Source: Bacillota bacterium
GTDB taxonomy: Bacteria; Bacillota; DTU030; DUMP01
NCBI GenBank assembly: GCA_012799605.1
Contig: JAAZKX010000051.1
Coordinates: forward strand, 1 to 64,000
Reading direction: 5' to 3'
DNA length: 64,000 nucleotides
Below the pieces are notes generated by a model. That model saw only the letters and a list, made by a program, of their open reading frames with translations. It was not told the DNA's origin and made no database searches. Position numbers and translations under genes: made by a program. Below are positions 5,253 to 52,451 of the stretch, piece after piece; positions within the stretch are counted from its first letter, which is position 1, and each line of letters starts with the position of its first letter.

Positions 5253-6596
5253 TTAATTTGTCGAACCGAGACGAAAGTAAGGGAGTTTTTGTTCAGCGAG
5301 CGCCAAAAGTTGGGACCGTGAGTTGAGGCGAGGATCATCCCACACCGCTTCCAGTAAGCTCTGCTTTAGGGCTCCGACCAATGGCCCCGGTTTAAGCCCA
5401 AGTTCCGCCATAAGTTCTGTCCCATCGAGGGCTAATTCAGCAGTAGTTAACGGCGGCCGCTCTTTAACAATCTGTCGGTAGGCAGCATCAAGCTCGGCTA
5501 TACCGGCCCGGCCGGGGTCAGCCCAAATAGCCATCCGGTCGGCTTTAATCAGCTCGATCATGAACCCAAAATTATCCCAACCCACTTTAGCAGCTAGCCG
5601 CCGTACCGGCGGCAGCCCTTCGGGGCCACGCCAAAACAACATATGGTGCCTTACCAACAACGTAACTGTGTTTACCAGTTTCCTGCTATAGCGAAGTCGG
5701 CCCAACACAGTAGGCACAAGTCTAGCTGACCGGGCCGCATGGCCGGGAAAACAACGCCCATGGGGGCCAATCTTGTATCCTTCCGCCTTACCGATATCGT
5801 GCAGTAAACCTGCCAACCGCACCGGCAGCTCAGGCGGGGTCAAGGAACAGGTTCTGATATTATGGCCTAGGACATCCTCCCGGTGGAGGCGGCCCTGCTT
5901 CACACCTTGACCGGTCAAAAGCTCGGGAATAATATAATTCATCAGACCGGTGTCCACCAGCAGCCATAGAGCCTGAAAAACACCACTGCCGGTCACCAGC
6001 CGGGACAACTCCTGCCCAATACGTTCGTTCGCTACTCGCTTGAGCCTTGCTTTCTCGGCTTCTATTGCTGCCAATGTATGAGGCTCGATTGAAAACTCAA
6101 GCTGGGCTACAAACCGGGCTGCCCGAAGCAGCCGTAAACCGTCTTCTTGAAACCGGGTTTTGGGATCTCCGACAGATCTGATCAATCCTTGTTCTAGATC
6201 TGCCTGGCCGCCCCACAGATCAACTATTTTGTCAGTGACCGGATCCCAGGCTAGGGCATTTATAGTAAAATCACGCCGCGCCAGATCCGCTTCCAAATCA
6301 GAAGCAAATTCAACCCGGTCTGGATGCCGGCCATCAGTATAGGAGCCCTCAGAGCGAAAAGTCGTAACTTCTACCGGATCGGGTACAAGTATGGTCACTG
6401 TACCAAAAGGGAGGCCGCTGGGGATCACCCAGTCAAACAGCCGGCTTACTTCTTCCGGCAGCGCGGCAGTGGCAATATCGAAATCTCGCGGTTTGGTTCC
6501 CATGAGCATATCTCGGACACATCCGCCGATTAAATAAGACCGGTAGCCTGCCTGTTGCAAAGTTATAATCGCCTCTATGACCGATTTTGGTATCAT
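5253..6596 (-). CDS. cca: CCA tRNA nucleotidyltransferase
   Basis: A 447-residue class II nucleotidyltransferase that adds or repairs the 3' CCA of tRNAs. It has the head motif LIGGCVRDMLMG, the metal-binding pair DFDIAT (DxD), and the RRDFTINALAWD motif. The neck follows (EDGLRLLRAARFVAQLEF), then an HD-type segment (LAGLLHDIGKAEGY, residues about 262-275) found in the longer bacterial forms. Start ATG is behind GAGGG. It is the last gene of the run dusB-HExxH protein-cca. The tRNA-Val gene in this window already encodes its CCA, so a repair role would suffice for that tRNA. Confidence 0.93.
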   Translation of the reverse strand: MIPKSVIEAIITLQQAGYRSYLIGGCVRDMLMGTKPRDFDIATAALPEEVSRLFDWVIPSGLPFGTVTILVPDPVEVTTFRSEGSYTDGRHPDRVEFASDLEADLARRDFTINALAWDPVTDKIVDLWGGQADLEQGLIRSVGDPKTRFQEDGLRLLRAARFVAQLEFSIEPHTLAAIEAEKARLKRVANERIGQELSRLVTGSGVFQALWLLVDTGLMNYIIPELLTGQGVKQGRLHREDVLGHNIRTCSLTPPELPVRLAGLLHDIGKAEGYKIGPHGRCFPGHAARSARLVPTVLGRLRYSRKLVNTVTLLVRHHMLFWRGPEGLPPVRRLAAKVGWDNFGFMIELIKADRMAIWADPGRAGIAELDAAYRQIVKERPPLTTAELALDGTELMAELGLKPGPLVGALKQSLLEAVWDDPRLNSRSQLLALAEQKLPYFRLGSTN

Positions 6597-6611
6597 TTAA
6601 ATCCCTCTTTT

Positions 6612-7574
6612 TCAGCTCCACGGATCTGATGGGAAAGCACTGAGCACACGACGCAAAATGCTGGGCTTAACTTCGCTGTCATCGTGACACATACCAATTT
6701 TAAGCCCTCGTAAAGTCAAGTATTCCGGCTCGGCCCCCAAATGCAGTGTTTGGGTCAGCCGCGATAAAGTACGGTTTCGCGCCCGCTCTAAAGCCAGGGG
6801 CAACGCCCGCCCTTCATTTAAGAGCTGGGACAACTCCTGCCCCAAATAAAAATGTGCCAAAGAAGTCATTGGATTCCCACAATAGCCGCTTCGGGTTTGG
6901 CCCAAAATTTCCGGCAGCTTGAAATTTAGACCCCACGAAATTGATTCCTTAAGCTCTGTTACTTCAGCGCGCATGGACCAGATTAGATTCTTGACCGTGC
7001 ACAGACCATATTCACGCAGCGCCCGGATAATCGAGTGCTCTAATGTATGGGCTGTTTCATGAGCTACAATCCCGCCTACTTGGCCTTGAATTTCTACTGC
7101 CACACCCTGATGATCCTGACCGTAAATAACAACCGTAATATCTTTCTCGGATCGTGGTTCCGTATACCCGCCTTGCACCTGCCAGCCGGCACCGGAGATA
7201 ACCGGTTGACCACGGCTACGTAGTGATTCCAAATTCAATACCTCCGCGGTCTCCGCCACAATAAAACCATCTTCGACCACAAGGCGCCCTGCTCCGGCAT
7301 GGGTTTGGCCGCTCAGCCGCGCCGCTAAGATTGTTTTCATCGTCCACGTAACAGGATTTAGGGCTTCGCCGCGGCCCAAATCTTTAATCCGGACCAACAT
7401 ACCGGCCGGATACAGCGCCCGCCGGCCCCAAGCTAGGGGCAACAACAAAGCTGTCGATCCAATGCCCAAACGGCTGAGGGTACGCTGCGAAAATTCATCC
7501 AAGAATATGCCTTCGACCGTACCGCCCGGCTGGGGAAAAATCCCATTCGCCACCGGTAAGACCAATGCTTTCAT
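6612..7574 (-). CDS. Unrecognised protein with an HExxH zinc-peptidase-like motif
   Basis: I do not recognise this 320-residue protein. Its most telling feature is HETAH (residues 172-176) in the context GGIVAHETAHTLEHSIIRAL, the gluzincin/zincin arrangement of two His ligands and a general-base Glu. A possible third ligand lies in the following helix (MRAEVTELKES, residues 201-211). The N-terminal half is beta-rich and the C-terminal part contains SGYCGNPMTSLAHFYLGQEL. There is no signal peptide or membrane helix, so a cytoplasmic location is expected. GGAGGAAGG precedes the ATG, and the gene sits 12 bp after dusB and 15 bp before cca in a tRNA-modification neighbourhood. Function unknown; a metallopeptidase is a hypothesis. 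Confidence 0.6.
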   Translation of the reverse strand: MKALVLPVANGIFPQPGGTVEGIFLDEFSQRTLSRLGIGSTALLLPLAWGRRALYPAGMLVRIKDLGRGEALNPVTWTMKTILAARLSGQTHAGAGRLVVEDGFIVAETAEVLNLESLRSRGQPVISGAGWQVQGGYTEPRSEKDITVVIYGQDHQGVAVEIQGQVGGIVAHETAHTLEHSIIRALREYGLCTVKNLIWSMRAEVTELKESISWGLNFKLPEILGQTRSGYCGNPMTSLAHFYLGQELSQLLNEGRALPLALERARNRTLSRLTQTLHLGAEPEYLTLRGLKIGMCHDDSEVKPSILRRVLSAFPSDPWS

Positions 7575-7586
7575 CGCACCTTCCTC

Positions 7587-8540
7587 CTAGCGGACTTTGA
7601 AGTAAGATTTGAGTATTTGTCTGACTCTTTCGGCTTCAGTGGCATGCATGATTTCCTCTCGCAAGCGCGCTGCCCCCGGTAACCCTTTCGTATACCAAGC
7701 CAGATGCTTACGCATCTGCACCACACCTTGCTGCTCCCCTTTACGGGCTACCGCCAACTCAAAATGTCTTAGCATCATGACCCAGCGCTCTTTCATTTCC
7801 GGTTCCGGCGGTGCTGCGCCGGTGGCCAAATATTTTACTGTTCGCCCTATCAGCCATGGGTTACCCAAGATTCCCCGGGCTAGCATCACCGCATCAGTAC
7901 CAGCAACCGCTAGCATTTTCCCAGCATCCTCAGGTGTAAATATATCCCCGCTGCCAATTACCGGCACCGGTACAGCTTCTTTAACCCGCCTTATTTCCTC
8001 CCAGTTAGCCCGGCCCCCATAAAACTGCGATCTGGTCCGGCCGTGAACAGTAATAGCAGCTGCCCCGGCTGCAGCCAGTTGCTCAGCTACTTCGACTGCA
8101 TTTTTGTGTTCTTCATCGAAACCCAAGCGAATTTTCGCCAACACCGGCAGCTCAACCGCCTCGACCATGGCTTGCACAATGGCCGCTGCCAACGAAGGGT
8201 TCTTCAGCAGCGCAGCCCCTTCCCCGTTATTCACAATTTTCGGCGCCGGACAACCCATATTAATATCTAAGGCGGCTGGTTTAAGCTCCCTTAGCTTTTG
8301 GGCCGCCCGGGCCATCAGATCCGGTTCTTTGCCGAATAGCTGAACTACCACCGGCCCTTTTTCGTCCGCCGAAACAGCCATCTGCCATGTACGGGGGTTA
8401 TTATAAAGCAAGGCCTGGGCACTGATCATTTCGGTCCAGACTAGTGCCGGGCCCTGTTCCCAGATTAACTTGCGAAACACATCATCGGTGATACCGGCCA
8501 TAGGGCCTACCACCACCTGGTTTGTTAATAATTTCAGCAT
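7587..8540 (-). CDS. dusB: tRNA-dihydrouridine synthase
   Basis: A 317-residue flavoenzyme that reduces specific uridines in the tRNA D-loop using NADPH. The TIM-barrel start VVGPMAGITDDVFRKL, the block DINMGCPAPKIVNNGEGAAL with the catalytic Cys, and VHGRTRSQFYGGRANW are typical of the DusB group. The flavin-phosphate region VIGSGDIFTPEDA and MLARGILGNPWLIG follow. AGGAGG lies 6 nt before the ATG. It follows coaX across a terminator (8558-8578) and begins the dusB-HExxH-cca group. dusB near coaX, ftsH and greA is a common clostridial order. Confidence 0.93.
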   Translation of the reverse strand: MLKLLTNQVVVGPMAGITDDVFRKLIWEQGPALVWTEMISAQALLYNNPRTWQMAVSADEKGPVVVQLFGKEPDLMARAAQKLRELKPAALDINMGCPAPKIVNNGEGAALLKNPSLAAAIVQAMVEAVELPVLAKIRLGFDEEHKNAVEVAEQLAAAGAAAITVHGRTRSQFYGGRANWEEIRRVKEAVPVPVIGSGDIFTPEDAGKMLAVAGTDAVMLARGILGNPWLIGRTVKYLATGAAPPEPEMKERWVMMLRHFELAVARKGEQQGVVQMRKHLAWYTKGLPGAARLREEIMHATEAERVRQILKSYFKVR

Positions 8541-8557
8541 TTTATCCTCCTAAGTGA

Positions 8558-8578
8558 GGAAAAGCCCCAGCGGGGCTT
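8558..8578 (-). terminator. Rho-independent terminator after coaX
   Basis: AAGCCCC/GGGGCTT forms a 7-bp stem with a 3-nt loop (8562-8578), followed on the minus strand by TTTT. It sits directly after the coaX stop at 8587 and before dusB. A T-rich stretch also follows on the plus strand, so it might work in both directions. Confidence 0.75.
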
Positions 8579-8586
8579 ATTGTTTT

Positions 8587-9372
8587 TCACTCATGGCCGG
8601 TTTGTTGTTGACGATTATAAATTAACTGCAGGCCGGTCAGGGTAAGATCTAAATTCACTTTATCGATAGTTTTGGATTGGGCTGCTACCAACGGGGCCAG
8701 CCCGCCAGTGGCCACTGCGAGGGCCTCGGCCCCAAGCTCGGCCCTTATTCGCTGTACCAGCGCATCAACTTGTCCGGCAAATCCATAGATAACACCCGCC
8801 TGCATACTGGCTACAGTATCTTTACCAATTGCGGTCCCCGGATCTACCAGATCGATGCGCGGTAGTTTGGCTGCTTTTCTAAACAGGGCCTCCGTCGCTG
8901 TCAAGATGCCGGGGGCAATCGCTCCGCCCAAATATTCCCCTTCGGCCGAAACAACATCAAAACTGGTAGCCGTGCCAAAATCCACCACAATTGACGGACC
9001 GCCGTAGAGGTAGTGAGCGGCGACTGCATTGGCCACCCGATCCGCCCCTACCTCCAGCGGGTTATCATACAATACTTTAATGCCGATATCCATTCCCGGC
9101 TTTAGCATCAACGGCGTGCATTTAAAATAGCGGCGCGCAAGTTTTTCCAAAATACATGTCAGCGGCGGCACCACCGATGCTATTACAACTCCGACAACAT
9201 CTTTAGGATCTAGTCCCGAGATAGTAAACAGTTCATACAAAAAAAGGCCGTATTCATCTTCAGTTTTTGACCGGTCAGTTCCTAGCCGCCAGCGGGTCAG
9301 TATTTTTGACCCCGACAAAACTCCGGCTATGATATGGGTATTTCCTACATCCAGAGCTAATAACAACCCCAT
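8587..9372 (-). CDS. coaX: Type III pantothenate kinase
   Basis: This 261-residue ASKHA-fold kinase phosphorylates pantothenate in the first step of coenzyme A synthesis; type III enzymes need a monovalent cation and are not inhibited by CoA. It shows the N-terminal phosphate loop LLALDVGNTHI, the substrate-binding block NPLEVGADRVANAVAAHYLYG, and VVDFGTATSFDVV followed by YLGGAIAPGI. The length is standard. ATG at 9372 has only a GGGGG-type site. It lies 15 bp after the thioesterase gene, suggesting the pair is co-transcribed from the ftsH side. Confidence 0.93.
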   Translation of the reverse strand: MGLLLALDVGNTHIIAGVLSGSKILTRWRLGTDRSKTEDEYGLFLYELFTISGLDPKDVVGVVIASVVPPLTCILEKLARRYFKCTPLMLKPGMDIGIKVLYDNPLEVGADRVANAVAAHYLYGGPSIVVDFGTATSFDVVSAEGEYLGGAIAPGILTATEALFRKAAKLPRIDLVDPGTAIGKDTVASMQAGVIYGFAGQVDALVQRIRAELGAEALAVATGGLAPLVAAQSKTIDKVNLDLTLTGLQLIYNRQQQTGHE

Positions 9373-9387
9373 AATGTTCGGTGCCCC

Positions 9388-9789
9388 CTACATACCCTCA
9401 GCTTTAGCCTGGGCCTGTTGTATAAAACGTTCCAGGTGGACAATAAACCGTTCATGTTCACCTTGGGCTACTTTCTCCTGCTGATCATGCGCCTCCACCG
9501 AAAAAACTAGCCGCCGGCCATCAATTTTCGTCAGTACAGCCCTGGCAGTGACCTGCATGCCCACTGGAGTAGCTGCCAAGTGCCCGATATTCACCCGGGT
9601 CCCCACGGTAGTCCATTGTGCCGGCAAGTGGGGCTGAACAGCTTCCATAGCTGCCCCTTCCAACAGGGCTATTAACATGGGGGTAGCCAATACTTCCACT
9701 CCTCCGCTGCCCAAACTGGAAGCGGTGTGCTTGGGTTTAACTATCTCCGTTATCTCCTTAGTAAGCCCGGGTTCAAGTGTAAACTGCAC
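9388..9789 (-). CDS. FlK-like hotdog-fold acyl-CoA thioesterase
   Basis: A 133-residue single hotdog domain. The block VEVLATPMLIALLEGAA followed by TTVGTRVNIGHLAATPVG matches the fluoroacetyl-CoA-thioesterase-like family, in which Thr, Glu and His of these blocks form the active site; all three kinds of residue are present here. Start is GTG (9789) with AAAGGAGAG upstream. The substrate is not predictable; most relatives are not fluoroacetyl-CoA specific. It lies 14 bp after ftsH and 15 bp before coaX, so may take part in CoA-ester housekeeping. Confidence 0.8.
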   Translation of the reverse strand: MQFTLEPGLTKEITEIVKPKHTASSLGSGGVEVLATPMLIALLEGAAMEAVQPHLPAQWTTVGTRVNIGHLAATPVGMQVTARAVLTKIDGRRLVFSVEAHDQQEKVAQGEHERFIVHLERFIQQAQAKAEGM

Positions 9790-9803
9790 TTTAGTCTCTC
9801 CTT

Positions 9804-11711
9804 TCAGGCCCGTTGCGGTGCTGTAGGAAACGAAATTCTTAGCTCAGCCATCCGGGACAGTTGTTTGGGAGAATCTTTTTTTTCGTCGTTTTCCGGCCGA
9901 TCAGTCGCTTCCGCATTTGAGTCCGAATCCATCAGCTGTTTAAATTCATCAGCTTCAAGCGTTTCTTTTTCAAGCAATGCAGCCGCTACCTTATCCAGCC
10001 GATCGCGGTTTTCTGTTAGCAAAGTTACCGCTTTATTGTAGCACAAGTCGACGAAATGCCGCACTTCACGGTCAATGGCCGAAGCCACTTCTTCACTGTA
10101 GTTTCGATCACGCGCTATATCCCGGCCTAAAAATACCTCTTCTTTTTTGTGGCCGAAAGTAAGCGGGCCCAGTTCTTCGCTCATGCCATATTCAGTAATC
10201 ATCTTCCGGATTACATTGGTAGCCCGCTCCAAATCATTTTGAGCACCAGTGCTGATTTCTTCAAGGGCCAGCTCTTCGGCCACCCGGCCCCCCAGCAGCT
10301 GGGTCACCCGGTCAAACAGTTCCGAGCGCGTCAGATAATAGCGGTCTTCTTTCGGCAAGCTGAGTGTATAGCCGCCGGCCCGGCCCCGGGGAATAATCGA
10401 CACCTTATGAACCGGATCAGCGTGCGGGAGCAGATGCCCTACAACAGCATGGCCGGCCTCGTGAAAAGCAACCAGCTTCCTCTCCCGTTCCGAAATCACT
10501 CGGCTACGCCGTTCCGGGCCGGCAATCACCCGGTCAATCGCTTCCTCTAGCTCATCCATCCCGATCCGCCTTTTGTTGCGCCGTGCTGCCAAAATGGCCG
10601 CCTCATTAAGCATATTGGCTAGGTCAGCCCCGGTAAAACCCGGAGTCCGGCGGGCCAACACGGCCAGGTCAACATTGTTCTCCAGTGGCTTACCCACCGC
10701 GTGCACCTTGAGGATAGCTTCGCGGCCTTTAACATCAGGTTGATCTAAAATTACCTGGCGGTCAAACCGGCCCGGCCTAAGCAGGGCAGGATCCAATACA
10801 TCCGGCCGGTTGGTAGCCGCCAGCACAATAACACCTTCGTTTACACCAAAACCATCCATTTCAACCAGTAGCTGGTTCAACGTTTGTTCGCGCTCGTCAT
10901 GGCCACCGCCTAAGCCAGCCCCGCGCTGACGCCCGACAGCATCAATTTCATCGACAAAAACCAAACAGGGCGCGTTTTTCTTCGCTTGTTCGAATAAATC
11001 ACGCACCCGGGCTGCACCCACCCCGACAAACATTTCCACAAAATCTGAACCGCTGATGCTAAAGAACGGAACATCAGCTTCACCGGCCACAGCTCTTCCC
11101 AGTAATGTTTTTCCGGTACCCGGCGGACCTACCAGCAGTACACCTTTAGGAATCCGGGCCCCTAAATCCAAGAACTTTTTTGGTTCTTTCAAAAATTGAA
11201 CAATTTCCTCCAGTTCTTCCTTGGCTTCTTCAGCCCCGGCCACATCAGCGAAGGTAACAGGAGCTTTATCATCCGGAGTATACAAACGCGCCCGGCTGCG
11301 GCCAAAAGACATAACCCGGCTGCCGCCGCCTTGGGTTTGTTGCATAATAAACATCCACACACCTACCAAAAGTATGATTGGCAGAAGCGTAGACAACAGT
11401 GTAGACCACCACGGCGGTCCTTGCGCAGGTTTATAATCTATCTCAACTTGCTTATTCTCTAATCTTTCTTCTAACCGAGCCAAGTCACCCAAAAAGGGCA
11501 AGCCAAATTGGGTGCCATCTTCCAGCTCTCCTTCCACTTTCGTGCTCGAGATGGTAACTTTGGCCACTTGACCTTGGTCCAGCAAGGCCAAAAACTGGGT
11601 GTAGTTCAGCTCCTGCTCGGACGGGGCGGAAGTAGAAAAGTAATTTATAATTGATAAGGCTATAATGATGAGCAGCAAGTAAAGGCTCATGCTGCGAAAA
11701 ATACGGTTCAA
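9804..11711 (-). CDS. ftsH: ATP-dependent zinc metalloprotease FtsH
   Basis: A 635-residue membrane-bound AAA+ protease for quality control of membrane and regulatory proteins. There are two N-terminal transmembrane helices (residues about 7-25 and 104-124) flanking a small extracytoplasmic domain. Walker A is [10 protein letters not shown] (195-204) and Walker [13 protein letters not shown]. The second region of homology is [20 protein letters not shown], and the zinc site HEAGH is at 417-421. I chose the TTG at 11711 because AGGAGG stands 7 nt before it and the protein then starts [15 protein letters not shown], as in relatives; a TTG at 11729 overlaps the ribosome site itself. It has its own promoter and a stem-loop at the predicted mRNA 5' end. 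Confidence 0.96.
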
Positions 11712-11741
11712 GTCAGGCCCTCCTCTCAAATCGGCCTTACG

Positions 11742-11769
11742 GTATCAGCTGGGCCGACTCAGCTGATAC
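11742..11769 (-). repeat. Perfect 10-bp inverted repeat at the predicted 5' end of ftsH mRNA
   Basis: GTATCAGCTG (11742-11751) and CAGCTGATAC (11760-11769) are perfectly complementary with an 8-nt loop. No T-run follows on the minus strand, so it is unlikely to be a terminator. From the promoter just upstream, transcription would begin at about 11769, placing the stem at the very 5' end of the ftsH transcript. Confidence 0.65.
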
Positions 11770-11775
11770 TAGTTA

Positions 11776-11804
11776 ATTGTAGCATATTTAAGTAAGGTGG
11801 GCAA
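11776..11804 (-). promoter_or_regulatory. Sigma-A-type promoter for ftsH
   Basis: TTGCCC (11804-11799) and TACAAT (11781-11776) on the minus strand are separated by 17 bp. The start codon lies about 58 nt downstream of the predicted start site. It lies in the gap after hpt, indicating ftsH-thioesterase-coaX can be transcribed separately from tilS-hpt. Confidence 0.65.
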
Positions 11805-11824
11805 CAAAACGAAAGCTGCACTGA

Positions 11825-12355
11825 TCAAGGATCCAGCACCGCAATAAAGGGTAGATTACGGTACCGTTCATTATAGTCTAGGCCATAGCCGACGACAAAG
11901 CGATCAGGAATCTGAAAGCCAACATAATCCACCTTAACATCCACTATCCGGCGGGATGGCTTGTCCAGTAAAGTACAAATTCCCAGGCTCGCCGGACCGC
12001 GGTTTAGCAGATGGCGGTATAGATAATCCAAAGTCAAACCGGTATCGATAATATCTTCTACGATCAGCACGTGCTTACCTTCCAAACTATCGTCTAGATC
12101 CTTCAAAATCCGCACCACACCGGAGGATTTCGTTGAAGAACCGTAGCTAGACACAGCCATAAAATCAAAAGTTACCGGCAGTTTGATCTGTTGGCAGAGC
12201 TCACTGAGAAAAACGACAGCCCCTTTTAGCACCCCGATCAGAAGAAGTGATTCACCTTGATAATCATGGGTAATTTGCGCCCCTAGCTCCTGCACCTTTT
12301 TCTTCAGCTTGTTTTCATCAATTAAAATTTCAGTTATTGCCTCAAGGTAGGTCAA
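11825..12355 (-). CDS. hpt: Hypoxanthine phosphoribosyltransferase
   Basis: A 176-residue purine salvage enzyme converting hypoxanthine or guanine plus PRPP to IMP or GMP. It has the PRPP-binding loop VLIVEDIIDTGLTL, the flexible-loop region FDFMAVSSYGSSTKSSG, and the C-terminal VGYGLDYNERYRNLPFIAVL. The start is TTG at 12355, with AGGAGG 9 nt upstream, giving the normal family length. The open frame extends to 12535 but that part is tilS in another frame. The start overlaps the end of tilS by 14 bp, indicating translational coupling; tilS-hpt is a common Firmicute pair. Confidence 0.93.
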   Translation of the reverse strand: MTYLEAITEILIDENKLKKKVQELGAQITHDYQGESLLLIGVLKGAVVFLSELCQQIKLPVTFDFMAVSSYGSSTKSSGVVRILKDLDDSLEGKHVLIVEDIIDTGLTLDYLYRHLLNRGPASLGICTLLDKPSRRIVDVKVDYVGFQIPDRFVVGYGLDYNERYRNLPFIAVLDP

Positions 12356-13784
12356 AAGTTTCTTCCTCCTTTTTATCAGTAGCCATCTTTTGGACATAAA
12401 TAAATAATTGTTCGGCAGTTGTGGCACGGACAATAAAACGCTCATCCACCCGAAATCCGGCAACCCAGACAATATCAGTACGATTAGTAACAAGAAGCAC
12501 CCGATCCCGCCGCTGGCGGGGAACTTTGCAGTCAATCAAAAAATCGCTCAGTTTCTTGCGGCCGCCTACCCCTTGGGGATAAAACCAATCCCCTCGGCGG
12601 CGGTTACGGACAAAAAGGTTGCTTCCCGTTTCATTATAGTCAAAAGACCCCATGGCCACAAGGGAATCGGGACAAATGTCCGCTTTTACCCCGACTGCAG
12701 TTCGTAACTGAAGCCCCAATTCTGCAATAGGCGTTAGGCCAGGAACAGCCAGCCGGTAGCAAAAATTTGGTATGCGCTCCTGTTCCGGACAGCCGCTAGT
12801 TACCATAATTTCGCTATATGTTCGCTGGGCTTGCACACCCCGAGGTAGATGAAGCACAGTGCCCACCCGAGCTGAGCCTAAAGCCAGCAAGGATTCGGTA
12901 TGGTCAAAGCTCAGATTTCGGTGATCGCCAGCCGCAGCCGCATAAGCCTGTCGCAGCACTCGGCGTTTTAACGCCAGCGGCAGGATCAAAAGACCGGCCA
13001 CATCTAGGGCCACTCCTTTGTTTACGGTTCTTATCAGCTTTGAATATGCCTTTTTAGCCACTGCCTTTAGATACTGATCCTCCTCTTGCCAGACCGCAGC
13101 TGACTGGGCCAAAACTTCCTTTATATTAGGGTTGGCTTCATCCCGTAGCCAAGGCAGTAGCCGGTAACGGATCCGGTTTCTCAGATAAGCCGGGTCTACA
13201 TTATAAGGATCATGGCGCGGGACCAAGCCAAAGGCAGCACTGCAGGCTTCTGTTTCTTTTCTGGTCACTTCCAGAAGCGGGCGGATCACCCAGCCGTATG
13301 TCGCCCGCCGTTTTGGGCGGATACCAGCAATGCCGGTCAATCCGGACCCGCGAACAAGATGAAGCAGTATCGTTTCGGCCTGGTCATCTTGAGTTTGTCC
13401 GACAGCCACTTTAGTAGCATCCAGCTGTTGGGCCAAATCCCGATAAAAAGCATAGCGGGCAACCCGGCCTGCCTGCTCGACCGTCAACCCCTGCTCTGCA
13501 ATCAATGCCGGCACATCAGTATCCCGCCGGTAAAAAGGCACACCCAGCTGGGCCGACAGTTCCTTAACCCAGTTAGCATCGGCTTCGGCTTGATCGCCGC
13601 GCATCAGATGATTTAAATGAGCTACGAACAGCTGCAGCTCATATTCCGGCGCCAGCTCCTGCAAAGCCAGTAGCATGGATACCGAATCGGCCCCTCCCGA
13701 TACCGCCACAATCACCTTATCTTTAGGTTTTAACAAACGATAACGTTGGCAAGTGGAGCGGACTTTATTGACAAATTCGACCAT
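12342..13784 (-). CDS. tilS: tRNA(Ile)-lysidine synthase
   Basis: About 480 residues. It modifies C34 of the tRNA-Ile with CAU anticodon to lysidine so that it reads AUA, using ATP and lysine. The PP-loop IVAVSGGADSVSML is near residue 25. Other family blocks are VAHLNHLMRG and VGQTQDDQAETILLHLVRGSGLTGI, with the C-terminal substrate-binding domains ending in a TilS-C region (RNRRRGDWFYPQGVGGRKKLSDFLID). The start is uncertain: ATG at 13784 follows GGTGAT by 7 nt, while ATG 13793 or GTG 13796 are possible. It overlaps hpt downstream. Confidence 0.93.
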   Translation of the reverse strand: MVEFVNKVRSTCQRYRLLKPKDKVIVAVSGGADSVSMLLALQELAPEYELQLFVAHLNHLMRGDQAEADANWVKELSAQLGVPFYRRDTDVPALIAEQGLTVEQAGRVARYAFYRDLAQQLDATKVAVGQTQDDQAETILLHLVRGSGLTGIAGIRPKRRATYGWVIRPLLEVTRKETEACSAAFGLVPRHDPYNVDPAYLRNRIRYRLLPWLRDEANPNIKEVLAQSAAVWQEEDQYLKAVAKKAYSKLIRTVNKGVALDVAGLLILPLALKRRVLRQAYAAAAGDHRNLSFDHTESLLALGSARVGTVLHLPRGVQAQRTYSEIMVTSGCPEQERIPNFCYRLAVPGLTPIAELGLQLRTAVGVKADICPDSLVAMGSFDYNETGSNLFVRNRRRGDWFYPQGVGGRKKLSDFLIDCKVPRQRRDRVLLVTNRTDIVWVAGFRVDERFIVRATTAEQLFIYVQKMATDKKEEETFDLP

Positions 13785-13965
13785 CAGAATCATCACCTAA
13801 TTTTGGGGGCTGTTTTGTCCCAACTAGCGTACCTTAAAGCAACTGCAGGGCTAGCCCTTATTTTACCGATCTAAAGTAAAGCGGCAGCTTGGAGCCGCCT
13901 GCTCATACCAACATATTCGCCCTAGTTATTATTATCTCCTTCTTGCCTCTATCCAACCGTCAATG

Positions 13966-13990
13966 TGAAAAACCCCGGCTGCCCGGGGTT
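13966..13990 (-). terminator. Rho-independent terminator after spoIIE
   Basis: AACCCCGG (13971-13978) pairs with CCGGGGTT (13983-13990) around a 4-nt loop, followed on the minus strand by TTTTT. It lies 16 bp after the spoIIE stop. A second, weaker 7-bp hairpin (GGCGGCT/AGCTGCC) near 13880-13898, also followed by T-rich sequence, may be a backup; the rest of the gap to tilS shows nothing else clear. Confidence 0.85.
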
Positions 13991-14005
13991 GGTGCCAATT
14001 TTTAT

Positions 14006-16402
14006 CTATGAAGCCTCAACACTTACTGCCAATACCGTCATATCGTCATCCACGCCTTCGGCTCGCCGCGCAGCTAGCGCTAAAATGCTTTGGGCCAGCT
14101 GCTCTGGTTCCTCCCGGCTTTGCTGAACATAATTTATCAGCCAGTCAATCCCGGCCGCGCGTTCTTGGCGGCATTCTAAGACTCCATCGCTGATCATCAC
14201 CAGTATATCCCCGGTGCACAGTTTCTTTTTAATCACTGCCAGATCCACCTCCGGCAAAATACCAAGCGGCGGCGCTCCGGGATTGATAACTGCCACCGTA
14301 CGGCCGCGTTTTAATAAAGTTGGGCACGATCCTACCTTGATAAATTCTGCCGCTGCAGTGTAAGGATCCATCAATACCAGATCCAAAGTGGCAAAGCATT
14401 CTTCCGTCGACCGGAGCACCAAGACTGAATTTAAAGTCTGCAGCACCACATCTTTGCCCAAACCTGCTGCCAACAAGCGTTCCACCAGCCGCACCGCCGT
14501 CCGGCTTTCTGCCGCGGCTTTAGCCCCACTTCCCATCCCGTCGCTTAAAATCAGCGCTTGCCGCCCATCGGGCAACTGGACGGCCTTAAATGAATCGCCG
14601 GATATATCGCCTCTTTTTTGAGGCCGGGTATACCCCGCCGCCACGAATTGGAATTGCGGGGCCGGCACTGCTTGAAGAACGCAGCCATCCTGATCATGAT
14701 CCAACCTACAACTGCAGATCTTGGCTTTCATCGGTTCACCTAGGGCTTTCCCCAACGCTGCAGCCGCCAGTTGCCGGCATTCCCGCCCTCCGGGACAATC
14801 CAAGTCCCGCAGCCAAACCTCTATTTTCCCGCCCAGGCTCTGCCATACATCCACCGCCCCGGCATTCAAATGATATTGTTTGAGCGAGCCTTGGACAGCT
14901 TCCTTCACATCTGCCAACACCTTCACATCTATTTTAAGCTCCCCGGCCAAATTAGACATCACCTTAGCCATCCCGGCCAACTGCGTCGCCACTAAATCGC
15001 GTTCTTCAATCAGCCTTTGCTTCCAGCTGATATTTGTTTTATAAGTGGTGAACAGATGATTAATCGCCTTAAGAAACTCCGGCAAGCGCTGACATTTTTG
15101 CCGGATACTTAAAGGTATATCCTCCACAGCCAAGCCGGCATTAAATTCAGCTAAAGACAGCAGTTCAAACGTGTTTTGATAGGTTTTAAAAAAATCCTGC
15201 TCCCAGCAGGTACTGTATAAGGGGCAACTTTCACACACGTGCGCCAACAAAGAAGCTAACAGACGGTTTAGTTGATCCTCATCCTTAGTCCGGGCTGTGG
15301 CCACGATTTCCTTAAATGCGGTTGACAATTCTTGCATCACCGCCGCCACCTGGGTCAAACGGGCACTAGCAGCTTGCCGCAGCCGCCCTTCATAATCTTC
15401 CTGCCGCCCTTGCTGCTCGCGGGTGCCCGGCACCAAACTGGCTGCCTCTTGGATCAAACCCCCAGGTGTAAGGGCAAAGAGGGCCAACGCCACCGCCGGC
15501 GAAAGCAAGCTTGCCCAAGTTAATCGACGGGGCAGTAAATAAAGGGACAGCGCTAATTCCCCCAACCCATAACCAAGCGCTGTCCCCGGTTTGCCGGTTT
15601 CTCGAAGAAGGCCAGCCAGTAATCCAGCAAAACCAAGAATACTAATTTGTTCCGCTGCGGCGGCCCCTGTGATCACAGCTACCGTGGCCACCAGTACTCC
15701 TGCCGCCGCACCCACCGTAGCACCGCCGGCTAGAGCCAGCAGCATCCCCAGATAACGGCCCAAAATTTCCCCCGGAACAAAAATTTCTCCTGAAAGACCG
15801 GCTGTTCCAGCCAAAGACACAGCGACTATCAAACCTAACGACATCAGCTGCTCATTGCTAAATACAGTACCGGGCTGATAATCCAACGCTGCCGGTAGCC
15901 CGTAGGAAAAAATCATACTACTTACAGCTGCCAGAACCGCTTCAAAAATCACCAAGCCCAGATCATACCACGTACCCCGGCTGGCCCACACCACACACCC
16001 GCGTACCATAAGCAGTGTCGCCGCCAACACCAATGCCCGTCGTCCGGGTAACGCCCCCGAAAATCTGATCCGGGTAAACCCGACTACCAGCAAGGCTAGA
16101 ACCACAAAATAAGGTAGGGTCGAGCCAAACCCTAAAGCTGTAATCATACCGGCTGCTATTGACCCGCTGACAAGCACTGCCGTCCACTTGGATTGCTGGG
16201 GCAAGACCGCTGCCAGTAGCGCCGGGCCAAACGGTACCACCCCGTAGAGCAAGTTGGCCCGCCCGACCAAAAAACAGCCGAAGGCAAGAGCCAAACCGCT
16301 CCAGGCAGTCTTTATGGTACCCATCTCCAACCGCCACGGTTTCCTCGCCGGGCGCAGCGGATACGGGCATAAACGCTTATATGCTTCCCGGTCTGCAGAC
16401 AC
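14006..16402 (-). CDS. spoIIE: Stage II sporulation protein E (PP2C-type phosphatase)
   Basis: About 798 residues. SpoIIE dephosphorylates SpoIIAA in the forespore to release sigma-F, and also acts at the asymmetric septum. The N-terminal third is a string of about ten hydrophobic helices. A central cytoplasmic region follows with the family's Cys-rich segment (CESCPLYSTCWEQDF), then a C-terminal PP2C domain with ALILSDGMGSGAKAAAESR and ILVMISDGVLECR, whose Asp residues bind metals. Start is GTG at 16402 (GGGGGG 8 nt upstream) or GTG at 16408. A Spo0A-type promoter candidate lies upstream. Its presence indicates an endospore former. Confidence 0.95.
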   Translation of the reverse strand: MSADREAYKRLCPYPLRPARKPWRLEMGTIKTAWSGLALAFGCFLVGRANLLYGVVPFGPALLAAVLPQQSKWTAVLVSGSIAAGMITALGFGSTLPYFVVLALLVVGFTRIRFSGALPGRRALVLAATLLMVRGCVVWASRGTWYDLGLVIFEAVLAAVSSMIFSYGLPAALDYQPGTVFSNEQLMSLGLIVAVSLAGTAGLSGEIFVPGEILGRYLGMLLALAGGATVGAAAGVLVATVAVITGAAAAEQISILGFAGLLAGLLRETGKPGTALGYGLGELALSLYLLPRRLTWASLLSPAVALALFALTPGGLIQEAASLVPGTREQQGRQEDYEGRLRQAASARLTQVAAVMQELSTAFKEIVATARTKDEDQLNRLLASLLAHVCESCPLYSTCWEQDFFKTYQNTFELLSLAEFNAGLAVEDIPLSIRQKCQRLPEFLKAINHLFTTYKTNISWKQRLIEERDLVATQLAGMAKVMSNLAGELKIDVKVLADVKEAVQGSLKQYHLNAGAVDVWQSLGGKIEVWLRDLDCPGGRECRQLAAAALGKALGEPMKAKICSCRLDHDQDGCVLQAVPAPQFQFVAAGYTRPQKRGDISGDSFKAVQLPDGRQALILSDGMGSGAKAAAESRTAVRLVERLLAAGLGKDVVLQTLNSVLVLRSTEECFATLDLVLMDPYTAAAEFIKVGSCPTLLKRGRTVAVINPGAPPLGILPEVDLAVIKKKLCTGDILVMISDGVLECRQERAAGIDWLINYVQQSREEPEQLAQSILALAARRAEGVDDDMTVLAVSVEAS

Positions 16403-39280: not shown

Positions 39281-39309
39281 CCTGCCACGGGGACGTAGCT
39301 TTTGGCAGG
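39281..39309 (+). repeat. Dispersed stem-loop repeat, copy 1
   Basis: CCTGCC and GGCAGG bracket the core ACGGGGACGTAGCTTTT. It lies 30 bp downstream of the chemoreceptor stop (39339, minus strand) and before the giant IPT gene. The core is shared with seven other copies to 60180. Confidence 0.8.
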
Positions 39310-39338
39310 TTGCCTGGTGCTCCCTGCCCCAATAGCTT

Positions 39339-47270: not shown

Positions 47271-47735
47271 TTATTCTTTCTCAGCCAGCTCCTTATAAAG
47301 CTGCGCTACAGTTTTATTGTATATTGGATGAACAAAAAATGGGGCCAATTCATATATAGGGCCAAGGACAAACAGGCGATTATGGGCATCCGGATGAGGT
47401 ATCTTTAGCTCGTTTTCATCCATAATCAAATCATCGTAAAAGATTATATCCAGATCAATATTTCTAGGGCCCCAACGAATTTTTCGTACCCGCCCCATTT
47501 CCTGCTCGATGTCTTGAAGTAACTTTAGTAACTCCAGCGGGGACAGGTTGGTTTTTACAATACAAGCCCCGTTTAAAAAGGTGTCCTGATTTTGATAACC
47601 ATATGGCTCTGTTTCAATTAGGGGCGAAATTTCAGTTACTCTAAGGCCCCGCTCTTTCATCTTTTCCAAAGCTCGTTTTATATTCTGCTCTTTATTACCA
47701 ATATTGCTGCCCAAAGCTATTATCGCCTGCGGCAT
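47271..47735 (-). CDS. folK: 2-amino-4-hydroxy-6-hydroxymethyldihydropteridine pyrophosphokinase
   Basis: A 154-residue enzyme that transfers pyrophosphate from ATP to 6-hydroxymethyl-dihydropterin before condensation with p-aminobenzoate. ALGSNIGNKEQNIKRAL at the start, the pterin-binding TEPYGYQNQDTFLNGA, and the catalytic RWGPRNIDLDIIFYDD are all standard. It overlaps folP by 16 bp and is the last gene of the folate cluster, followed by a terminator. No dihydroneopterin aldolase gene precedes it, which is unusual. Confidence 0.95.
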   Translation of the reverse strand: MPQAIIALGSNIGNKEQNIKRALEKMKERGLRVTEISPLIETEPYGYQNQDTFLNGACIVKTNLSPLELLKLLQDIEQEMGRVRKIRWGPRNIDLDIIFYDDLIMDENELKIPHPDAHNRLFVLGPIYELAPFFVHPIYNKTVAQLYKELAEKE

Positions 47736-48913
47736 TTGATCGCCTCCACCATCTTAATGACCCTGGCATTTTCCCGCACGTCGTGTACCCGGATCAAATC
47801 AACATCGTGATAAGCGCACAGGGCCGTAATAGCCAAAGTGCCCTCTAGCCTGTCAGCCGGCGATTCGAGAGCCAGCGCCGTCCCGACAAAGGATTTGCGT
47901 GAAGCACCGATCAAAAGTGGTCGACGGAAACTCTTAAGCTCGGACATCCGGTCCATGATTTCCATATTGTCTTCATAGGTTTTGCCAAAGCCAAGACCAG
48001 GATCGATGATTATATTGTGCTCAGGCACGCCCAAGTCCCGGGCACGGGCTATTTTATTGGCAAAATACTGCATAATCTCTTTAATAAGATCAGCGTAGGT
48101 AGGGTTTGTTTGCATGTCCTTGGGAGTCCCTTTGATATGCATAAGGATATAAGGCGCTTTGCTTTTGACTACAACCTCGATCAGTTTTTCATCAAAACCA
48201 AAGCCGCTGATATCATTGATAATATCAGCGCCGGCATCCAAAGCAGCTTGAGCGATACGAGCCCGGTATGTATCCACCGAGATTAAGGTTTCGCTGTGGT
48301 TTTTCCTGATGGCCGCCACTGCCGGGATAATTTTGGCATACTCTGTAGCTTCATCGACCGGATCCGAACCCGGGCGCGTAGACATGGCGCCGAGATCAAG
48401 CACATCGACCCCGTCCTGGACCATTTTAGCAGCAGTTTCGAGAATCTCAGCCATGTTTTGTTTACGTGAGCCGGCGTAAAAAGAATCGGGGGAGATATTG
48501 ATTATCCCCATCAGCCGCGGCCGATCAAATGTGAGTTTCCGCCCCCAAGGAGAGGTGATGGAATTCGGCTTTGGGGTTTCAAAATAACTTTTGAGCGCAC
48601 TCCGTACCCGGCCGAGCCCAAAATAGGGCATCAATTTGAGCTTGTCCAGCAAAATATTGTAATGCTTTCTCGTACCTAGCAAAATAACATCCGATACTTC
48701 GACATTGCAGTTTATAACATTCTTATGCACAACAGCATCGCCGCCCAAAGACAGCATTTCCTGCTTTAAGATATTGGCACCCGGTGCCGGAACATCAAAG
48801 GCTTTAAGAGGAATTATCTCTGCCTTGCGACCAAATATTTTATTTGAAGCCGGATGTATACCGACCTTTTTTAGCTCACTGTTAAGATAAGCCGGGGATA
48901 TATTTATTATCAT
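47720..48913 (-). CDS. folP: Dihydropteroate synthase with N-terminal extension
   Basis: A 397-residue enzyme joining hydroxymethyl-dihydropterin pyrophosphate to p-aminobenzoate. The TIM-barrel core begins near residue 135 with LMGIINISPDSFYAGSRKQ. It continues with VDVLDLGAMSTRPGSDPVDE, ADIINDISGFGFD, IIIDPGLGFGKTYEDN and LIGASRKSFVG. The first roughly 130 residues are an extra domain (FGRKAEIIPLKAFDVPAPGA) seen in the long DHPS forms of some anaerobes, role unknown. ATG 48913 overlaps the 3' end of folE2; a longer frame to 48955 is unlikely. Confidence 0.93.
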   Translation of the reverse strand: MIINISPAYLNSELKKVGIHPASNKIFGRKAEIIPLKAFDVPAPGANILKQEMLSLGGDAVVHKNVINCNVEVSDVILLGTRKHYNILLDKLKLMPYFGLGRVRSALKSYFETPKPNSITSPWGRKLTFDRPRLMGIINISPDSFYAGSRKQNMAEILETAAKMVQDGVDVLDLGAMSTRPGSDPVDEATEYAKIIPAVAAIRKNHSETLISVDTYRARIAQAALDAGADIINDISGFGFDEKLIEVVVKSKAPYILMHIKGTPKDMQTNPTYADLIKEIMQYFANKIARARDLGVPEHNIIIDPGLGFGKTYEDNMEIMDRMSELKSFRRPLLIGASRKSFVGTALALESPADRLEGTLAITALCAYHDVDLIRVHDVRENARVIKMVEAIKCRRR

Positions 48914-48929
48914 GATGCCGTCTGTCTCC

Positions 48930-49700
48930 TTATAACTCTTTTTCCACCCAAGCAAAAGCCTCGTGATTGTGGATGCTCTCGAAACTCTCTACTTCTACTT
49001 TGTACCAGGTAAGCCCTTGTTCTTTTTCTAGAAGCAAGGCTATATCCCGGGCTACATCCTCCACAAACTTGGGTGTGTTATAAGCTGTCTCGGTCACGTG
49101 TTTTTCATCCTCGCGTTTAAGAAGAGAAAAAACCGGGCTAGATGCGCATTGTTCCGCAATTTCCACCAGCCGTTCAAACCATATTTTTCTTTTTGTCTTA
49201 ACCAAAATCGTAACATTGGCCCGCTGATTGTGGGCCCCGAAGCTACTGATCTCCTTAGAGCAAGGGCATAGGGTTTGCACCGGCACAGCCACGCCGATAA
49301 TTATATCGCTGCTCGTAGGATGCATTTGACCGCTGATAGTCGCTTCAATTTTAAGCGGCGACAAGTGCCCGCTTACCGGCGCCTTTTTCCACATAAAATA
49401 AGGGAAGGTACATTCAAAAAAACTGCTTTCAGCATCAAGCCTTGTTTGCACAGTTTCTAAAATATCTAAAATAATGTGGGGGTTGAGAACCTCTATATTT
49501 TTTAATACCTCGACAAACCGGCTCATATGGGTTCCTTTAACATCGTGTTTTAAAGATACCGACAGGCTAATCGAGGCTACGGTATTTTGAAACCCTTTAG
49601 CTCGATCATATACCTTGAGGGGCCAGTCGATATTTTTAATCCCCACCCTGTTTAACGAAATCCCCCGGCGGTCAATTTGGCTTTGCACATCTTTTAGCAA
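48930..49700 (-). CDS. folE2: GTP cyclohydrolase FolE2
   Basis: A 256-residue type IB GTP cyclohydrolase, the metal-flexible enzyme converting GTP to dihydroneopterin triphosphate. Family blocks are VGIKNIDWPLKVYDRAKG at the start, VSLKHDVKGTHMSRFVEVL, the VQTLCPCSKEISSFGAHNQR segment with the metal-binding Cys, and HNHEAFAWVE near the end. It starts 1 bp after the pterin synthase gene and overlaps folP, so the order is pterin synthase, cyclohydrolase, DHPS, HPPK. It shares no similarity with FolE. Confidence 0.94.
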   Translation of the reverse strand: MLKDVQSQIDRRGISLNRVGIKNIDWPLKVYDRAKGFQNTVASISLSVSLKHDVKGTHMSRFVEVLKNIEVLNPHIILDILETVQTRLDAESSFFECTFPYFMWKKAPVSGHLSPLKIEATISGQMHPTSSDIIIGVAVPVQTLCPCSKEISSFGAHNQRANVTILVKTKRKIWFERLVEIAEQCASSPVFSLLKREDEKHVTETAYNTPKFVEDVARDIALLLEKEQGLTWYKVEVESFESIHNHEAFAWVEKEL

Positions 49701-49701
49701 A

Positions 49702-50058
49702 TCATTCCCCCCTGTAAGCTACACCGCAACTTTCAGTTTCCCAAATCTCTATTTCATCCAGTCGGCAATTTTCCCGGTACAGTTTATCATAAAGCTGATT
49801 CCAAACCCAGCGGGCAATATTCTCAGCCGTAGGCTGCTCAATAAAATCGTTAATATACGCATGATCAAGTTTATCAAGCACCTCGGCAGTTACAATGCCT
49901 TTTAGTTCCACAAAATCTATAATCATATCTTCTTCATCGGGCTCACCTTTAATCTTGACCACAAGGCCGTAGGTGTGCCCGTGAAGCCGCTCGCATTTAC
50001 CGTGGTATTTGATCAAATTGTGAGCCGCATCGAACTTAAATTTCCGAATAAGAAGCAT
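49702..50058 (-). CDS. COG0720 pterin synthase, PTPS-I/III type (CExxHGH)
   Basis: A 118-residue member of the QueD/6-pyruvoyl-tetrahydropterin synthase family. Zinc ligands are His13 (FDAAHNL) and the HGH at 26-28. The catalytic region reads CERLHGHTYGL: Cys22 is followed by Glu23. QueD has CxxxHGH, PTPS-III (which replaces FolB by making 6-hydroxymethylpterin) has ExxHGH, and the combination CExxHGH marks the dual PTPS-I/III group as I recall the literature. The late WETESCGVAY is the second active-site block. ATG 50058 has GGAGG upstream. It sits between bioB and folE2, in a cluster without folB, fitting the folate role. Confidence 0.88.
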   Translation of the reverse strand: MLLIRKFKFDAAHNLIKYHGKCERLHGHTYGLVVKIKGEPDEEDMIIDFVELKGIVTAEVLDKLDHAYINDFIEQPTAENIARWVWNQLYDKLYRENCRLDEIEIWETESCGVAYRGE

Positions 50059-50138: not shown

Positions 50139-51164
50139 TTACCAGGCCCTGGGGGCAACACCGTCTGGGGACTGGGGCTCGACACTATAGCCAAGCCCCC
50201 TTAACATAGCCATATCTTCATCTATCCCTTGGCCAGTTTTTGTCAGATAGTTTCCGATCAGCATGCCGTTTAGGCCACCTATCAGCCCCAGCGGCTGCAG
50301 GGGGCCAAGATTGATCTCCCGACCAGCAGCGAAGCGGATATTTTTTTGAGGCAAAATAAAACGCATGATGGCAAAGGTTTTTAAAATCTCCATCTCAGGG
50401 AGAGGTTTGGCCCCTTTGAGCCGAGTGCCTGGCACCGGCATTAAGATATTGATGGGCACAGCATCAACATCGAGCTCCCTGAGCAAAAAAGCATGCTCCA
50501 GCCGCTGCTGGGGCGTCTCCCCTAGGCCGATAATCATCCCCGAACAAACTTCCATCCCCGCTGCCTGGGCCCATTTGATCGTGTCTAGCCGCAGCGTATA
50601 ATCATGGCTGGTGACAACGCGGGGAAAGTAGCTGGGGGCCGTCTCCAGATTGATGTTGTAGCGCTCAACGCCGCAGCTAGCCAAAAGTTGGGCCGCTTTG
50701 GGGGTCAAAGTTCCCAGACAGGCACAAAGCTTTAAGTTCGTTTTCTCCTTGATGGCCGAAAAAGCAGCCAAAATGGCTTTAAATTCATCCTCATGGCCAG
50801 TATACCCTAAACCGCAGGTGGCGATATCACAGCGCTGGGCCCCATTTCTTTCATGCTCCACAGCCTGGGCCACAATTTGATCAATACTAAGTAGCCCATG
50901 CCCTTTAAACTGAGCCTCACTGTGGACCGATTGGGCACAAAAGGCACAATCTTCCGAGCAGCGGCCCGCCTTGGCGCTGATCACAGCGCATAAATCCATC
51001 TTATCCCCGACAAACTTTTCCCTGATTTTATTGGCCAGGGCCAACAGTAAAATAACGTTGCTGCCAGTGGCAGCCAAAAGTACCGCCGCCTGATCATAAG
51101 TTATCCTGCCCCCGGCTAACACATAATCTGCAGTATCGATGATCTGGTTCGCCAATTTATCCAT
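50139..51164 (-). CDS. bioB: Biotin synthase
   Basis: A 341-residue radical SAM enzyme inserting sulfur into dethiobiotin. The SAM cluster motif CSEDCAFCAQ has Cys69, Cys73 and Cys76. Other family blocks are LCACLGTLTPKAAQLL, VERYNINLETAPSYFPRVV with the [2Fe-2S] region following, and CSGMIIGLGETPQQRLE. The C-terminal FAAGREINLGPLQPLGLIGG is also present. A strong promoter and a BirA operator lie about 150 bp upstream. No other biotin gene is adjacent; the next gene is the pterin synthase, 80 bp on, with no clear terminator between. Confidence 0.95.
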   Translation of the reverse strand: MDKLANQIIDTADYVLAGGRITYDQAAVLLAATGSNVILLLALANKIREKFVGDKMDLCAVISAKAGRCSEDCAFCAQSVHSEAQFKGHGLLSIDQIVAQAVEHERNGAQRCDIATCGLGYTGHEDEFKAILAAFSAIKEKTNLKLCACLGTLTPKAAQLLASCGVERYNINLETAPSYFPRVVTSHDYTLRLDTIKWAQAAGMEVCSGMIIGLGETPQQRLEHAFLLRELDVDAVPINILMPVPGTRLKGAKPLPEMEILKTFAIMRFILPQKNIRFAAGREINLGPLQPLGLIGGLNGMLIGNYLTKTGQGIDEDMAMLRGLGYSVEPQSPDGVAPRAW

Positions 51165-51346: not shown

Positions 51347-51406
51347 ACAGAATCACCGCTGCCCGTAGCCAAAACGTGGTGGAAAAGCGATAATGTCTCA
51401 TTAGAG

Positions 51407-52063: not shown

Positions 52064-52350
52064 TATTAAAACCCCTCGTCACCTGAACAAGGGACGAGGG
52101 GTTTGGCTCGCGGTACCACCCAAATTGAGCCGCTGTGGGCTCCGCTTAAGGTATAGGCGCAAATAGCCTATACCACAGTCCTTTAACGGAGGACGTCCGG
52201 CAGCTACTACTTCCTTACGGGTTCGATCTGCTTCTCCCGGGTCCATTCGGCCAGCATTCACATTGCCGGGTTTCACCCAACCGGCTCTCTGTCAATGTTC
52301 CCGCTGCTTACTCTTCCCGATCAAAGAATTTAGCTGATCATATTTATCGA
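52064..52350 (-). promoter_or_regulatory. T-box riboswitch (tRNA-Trp) with terminator, controlling trpP
   Basis: The minus strand carries the T-box core GGGTGGTACCGCG (52121-52109). It is followed by a terminator hairpin of 12 bp (AAACCCCTCGTC 52069-52080 with GACGAGGGGTTT 52093-52104) and TTTTAAT. Upstream, the specifier region reads GAATGGACC with TGG at 52245-52243, the tryptophan codon. Uncharged tRNA-Trp would bind codon and T-box, favour the antiterminator and switch on trpP when tryptophan is scarce. Open frames within this region are spurious. Confidence 0.93.
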
Positions 52351-52404: not shown

Positions 52405-52451
52405 ACCTGCCAAAAGCTACGTCCCCGTGGCAGGTACCCCCGCGGCAGGTA
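52405..52451 (-). repeat. Dispersed stem-loop repeat, copy 4
   Basis: ACCTGCC (52405-52411) and GGCAGGT (52429-52435) bracket AAAAGCTACGTCCCCGT, so the core reads ACGGGGACGTAGCTTTT on the minus strand. A partial second arm (CGCGGCAGGTA) follows and abuts the stop codon of the radical SAM gene at 52452. Confidence 0.85.

Follow-up and report, generated by a model that had tools for sequence, protein, structure and literature searches.

A CExxHGH pterin synthase that very probably stands in for FolB in the folate cluster of a Bacillota bacterium

The PTPS-III and PTPS-I/III enzymes are reportedly the subject of works by Pribat et al. 2009 and Phillips et al. 2012. PTPS proteins have been sorted by an active-site motif, which is CxxxHGH in PTPS-I, ExxHGH in PTPS-III and CExxHGH in the hybrid PTPS-I/III (PMC5041015), and this published scheme agrees with the one cited in the original prediction made from the DNA described here. 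Replacement of FolB by PTPS-III has been validated in several organisms (PMC3223725), and in the Plasmodium PTPS the exchange of Glu-38 for Cys, Gln or Leu abolished the formation of 6-hydroxymethyl-dihydropterin (PMC2229834).

The 64-kb stretch of DNA that was analysed (the window) covers almost the whole of a contig of 65,416 bases, which belongs to an assembly of 1.57 Mb in 89 contigs, 92.5% complete and with a reported contamination of 0.37%. Profile matches bore out the predicted arrangement, in which a COG0720 gene with the motif CERLHGH is followed on the same strand by contiguous folE2, folP and folK without folB, each gene abutting or overlapping the next (Table 1). 3' of folK the cassette has a terminator-like end, seen by eye, which consists of an inverted repeat rich in GC together with a T run. 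With its called start, FolP is extended N-terminally by about 140 aa. In the other loci of CERLHGH-type genes no bioB, the upstream neighbour here, was seen close to the enzyme, and none of queC, queE and queF neighbours the gene at this locus. The Rfam scan around the cluster gave a single match, a T-box leader (RF00230, 108 bits, 52087-52333, minus strand) upstream of a gene for a TrpP-type tryptophan transporter. A 30-bp repeat at 52406-52435 and 39281-39310, part of a palindromic stretch and common to other contigs of the genome, is perhaps a REP-like element.

Table 1. Features of the folate cluster and of its upstream side (positions in the window)
Feature	Position	Strand	Evidence and remarks
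folK, HPPK	47271..47735	-	TIGR01498 E=2e-46
folP, dihydropteroate synthase	47720..48955	-	TIGR01496 E=1e-92; called with a TTG start; real start perhaps internal
folE2, GTP cyclohydrolase IB	48930..49700	-	PF02649 E=6e-87; TTG start, coupled to PTPS stop
COG0720 enzyme (PTPS-III / PTPS-I/III type)	49702..50058	-	CERLHGH; proposed 7,8-dihydroneopterin triphosphate to 6-hydroxymethyl-7,8-dihydropterin lyase
bioB, biotin synthase	50139..51164	-	upstream neighbour; ends 80 bp before PTPS start
24-bp remnant	51381..51404	-	same sequence as the end of a probably mobile repeated element; upstream edge of bioB-fol block

The enzyme gene is an intact ORF of 118 aa (sequence MLLIRKFKFDAAHNLIKYHGKCERLHGH...), and its ATG at 50058 was preferred because a good Shine-Dalgarno sequence, AAGGAGG, lies immediately 5' of it; a longer frame starting at 50139 was rejected on the same ground. 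Analysis of the protein revealed a match to PF01242 (Pfam PTPS) with E=9e-37, and the AlphaFold model (pLDDT 97.5) is a tunnel-fold, QueD-like subunit whose best PDB match is E. coli QueD (TM 0.91), the Plasmodium PTPS being matched as well; both profile and fold place it in COG0720, as had been predicted. The Zn ligands are His13, His26 and His28, and Cys22 stands next to Glu23, so that the one heptapeptide CERLHGH carries both the ExxHGH motif of PTPS-III and the CExxHGH motif of PTPS-I/III.

The two whole-genome searches called for at the outset, for folB and for a second queD, found neither. No folB was detected in the cluster or anywhere in the assembly by a profile that matched 10 of 14 control genomes, and the COG0720 gene is the only one in the assembly. 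FolB above the cut-off was likewise absent from all 31 whole genomes having close CE[RK]LHGH relatives (the carriers); the motif uniformity among these genomes is partly selected, because they were collected by similarity and KCERLHGH is contained in one of the six scan peptides. A second sample comprised 30 relatives having a COG0720 gene: FolB was present in all 25 whose protein is without the motif Glu, 24 of these having QueC too, and four of the five with CExxHGH are without both FolB and QueC. The pooled Fisher P is 2e-16, a value that is only nominal because the genomes are related and hence non-independent data points. Among the 80 closest loci, some of them on short contigs, FolE2 was encoded in 70, FolP in 32, FolK in 29 and QueC in none, and all 80 carry CE[RK]LHGH, a motif selected in part by the scan peptide. 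The phylogenetic tree placed the CExxHGH proteins on one side of a supported branch (97/86).

Clustering with folE2, folP and folK and the absence of FolB from the genome are what is expected of a PTPS-III. That the enzyme would supply 6-hydroxymethyl-dihydropterin for folate in the place of FolB is strongly supported because the gene cluster, the lack of FolB in the whole genome and the co-distribution seen among the carriers agree, and this part of the original prediction stands. The best explanation is very probably an enzyme of PTPS-III type that dispenses with dihydroneopterin aldolase and is folate-only in this organism. In the proposed route FolE2 would convert GTP to 7,8-dihydroneopterin triphosphate, the Zn tunnel-fold CERLHGH enzyme would cleave the side chain via Glu23, the counterpart of Plasmodium Glu-38, to give 6-hydroxymethyl-7,8-dihydropterin, and FolK and FolP would then lead to dihydropteroate. 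We infer the catalytic activity of the CERLHGH protein itself from the observed sequence, gene cluster, FolB absence and co-distribution and from the predicted fold.

Comparison with the 13 genomes of the host's class revealed the COG0720 gene in no other of them. FolK, FolB and the COG0720 gene are all missing in 10 of the 13, including one listed as 100% complete and as a single contig (G003), and for this reason de novo folate synthesis by the known route seems to be beyond these ten. FolB and FolK were found in only two other class genomes, G001 and G008. In G001, of the same genus, both genes lie within a tetrahydromethanopterin-type C1 cluster (L147, G001:C75:1000-16000, 6330-14832) that also encodes Mch, Ftr, a GXGXG-domain FhcC-like protein, DUF1464 and DUF6513/DUF4346 proteins, a FolE2-like cyclohydrolase and a RimK-like ligase, and they were rejected as a counter-case on that account; in G008 the adjoining protein resembles the DUF1464 protein of G001, as judged by likeness to that protein alone. 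Tetrahydromethanopterin-type C1 genes do occur, as G001 illustrates, in this Bacillota-like class.

A 12.6-kb DNA query matched class relatives at 67-73% on both flanks, one holding the hydrogenase genes and the other TrpP, a radical-SAM gene and additional genes, and bioB-PTPS-folE2-folP-folK gave no DNA match in these relatives. The GC content of the fol genes is 0.41-0.48 versus about 0.52 for most neighbours. The nearest row to the enzyme in the tree is Tepidanaerobacter (support 98/97), and the best match of FolE2 (78%) lies on the same contig as that row. The 24-bp sequence upstream of bioB probably represents what remains of an insertion-sequence end, and the repeated element that it matches occurs at the ends of contigs both in this genome and in a genome of another family (G009). 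Absence of the gene from class relatives and lack of a match for the block could also mean that the contig is a binning contaminant, which would render the whole-genome inferences void for the host, but this is very unlikely given the matching flanks, the low reported contamination and the recurrence of the 24-bp repeat on further contigs of this assembly. Horizontal acquisition of the four-gene cassette into a native contig is the probable reading, because the cassette is absent from class relatives, the contig is otherwise native and the sister of the enzyme is Tepidanaerobacter; we infer a Thermosediminibacterales-like donor. A lineage with relatives that seem to be without de novo folate synthesis has apparently gained a folate cassette.

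A role in queuosine synthesis, which had also been suggested for the enzyme, is not supported for this host. QueC was not found in this genome, nor was there a convincing one among the 13 class genomes, and the class-wide lack helps since in an assembly 92.5% complete the absence of any single gene is weak evidence. Weak partial QueC matches (E 1e-4 to 1e-8), seen in many genomes and judged by E-value and coverage alone, were taken to be other ATP-pyrophosphatases. Judged from the absence of QueC, de novo preQ0 synthesis appears to be missing, and because the pathway that it would feed is missing the enzyme is probably not also a queuosine maker in this organism; queA is present with tgt adjoining, so that the host does have the final steps by which queuosine is inserted, and this together with the lack of QueC suggests that the host salvages a queuine or preQ1 precursor. 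A dual-function PTPS-I/III enzyme serving folate and queuosine is therefore unlikely here, even though CERLHGH retains both Cys and Glu, the hybrid class has been described and the protein passes the NCBIfam QueD model (97.9 versus a cut-off of 89.25). Three of the eight carriers with convincing QueC (G175, G177 and G180, two Phascolarctobacterium and one MAG labelled Acholeplasmataceae) have the CERLHGH gene as sole COG0720 gene, but the other 23 of the 31 carriers are without convincing QueC, and in the remaining five QueC carriers a second COG0720 gene, C[KS]N[LI]HGH without Glu and interrupted in G179, stands beside queC. That the enzyme is no more than a QueD, an unrecognised aldolase filling the gap in the folate cluster, is extremely unlikely: a non-homologous aldolase could exist in the host, fold and identity are closest to E. 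coli QueD, and the CExxHGH protein L111 belongs to a queE-queC operon, but QueC, which would use the QueD product, was not found in the genome-wide search, no queC, queE or queF adjoins the gene, the enzyme sits with folE2-folP-folK, CExxHGH proteins separate from QueD in the tree and FolB is missing from every carrier.

The folate-only reading of the CERLHGH enzyme also bears on the motif, which had been taken as a mark of both activities and does not track dual function across the clade. CExxHGH permits dual function but does not by itself establish it, because most carriers are without QueC and five of those with QueC have a separate QueD; the retained Cys22 may still allow QueD chemistry in vitro. 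From QueC presence and the single COG0720 copy, the enzymes of G175, G177 and G180 are real dual-function candidates. These single-copy proteins (L058, L067 and L082) have AAHYLP and a Cys after DH[AS], where most folate-only members have AAHNL and Tyr; these could be dual-function residues, but the three proteins are phylogenetically close. L111 (554-2371), the fifth CExxHGH relative of the second sample, has CENIHGH, comes from a genome with FolB (G085) and lies nearest the QueD side of the tree, and its operon makes it a counter-example to ExxHGH as a folate mark; the motif alone is therefore no proof of folate function either. It is conceivable, if a little short of probable, that most of the clade is folate-dedicated with an ancestral QueD Cys and that bifunctionality is limited to a few lineages such as Phascolarctobacterium, in which case the published motif would need to be read differently. 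It is the genome context, rather than the CExxHGH motif, that shows whether an enzyme of this type works for folate, for queuosine or for the two together, which bears on automatic annotation and on the residues that keep QueD activity.

Compared with known systems, the Plasmodium PTPS (1Y13) has its catalytic Glu-38 at the ExxHGH position, like Glu23 here, but is without the Cys and about 22% identical. E. coli QueD (4NTM/4NTN) has the same fold, 38% identity and the Cys, Zn and Asp-His residues, whereas the CERLHGH enzyme has an extra Glu beside the Cys, no queC/queE context and a host genome without QueC. The enzyme differs from the PTPS-III / PTPS-I/III group in that it resides in a host without de novo queuosine synthesis, so that the hybrid label would fit its chemistry at most and not its role, and in that its cassette was apparently acquired by a lineage whose relatives have no FolK or a FolK of a tetrahydromethanopterin-type cluster. 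With the same group (PMC5041015, PMC3223725, PMC2229834) it shares ExxHGH with the Cys kept, the Zn His triad, the folate cluster and the absence of FolB, and as FolB substitution by a PTPS-type enzyme and the CExxHGH hybrid motif are already published, the CERLHGH enzyme is a further example.
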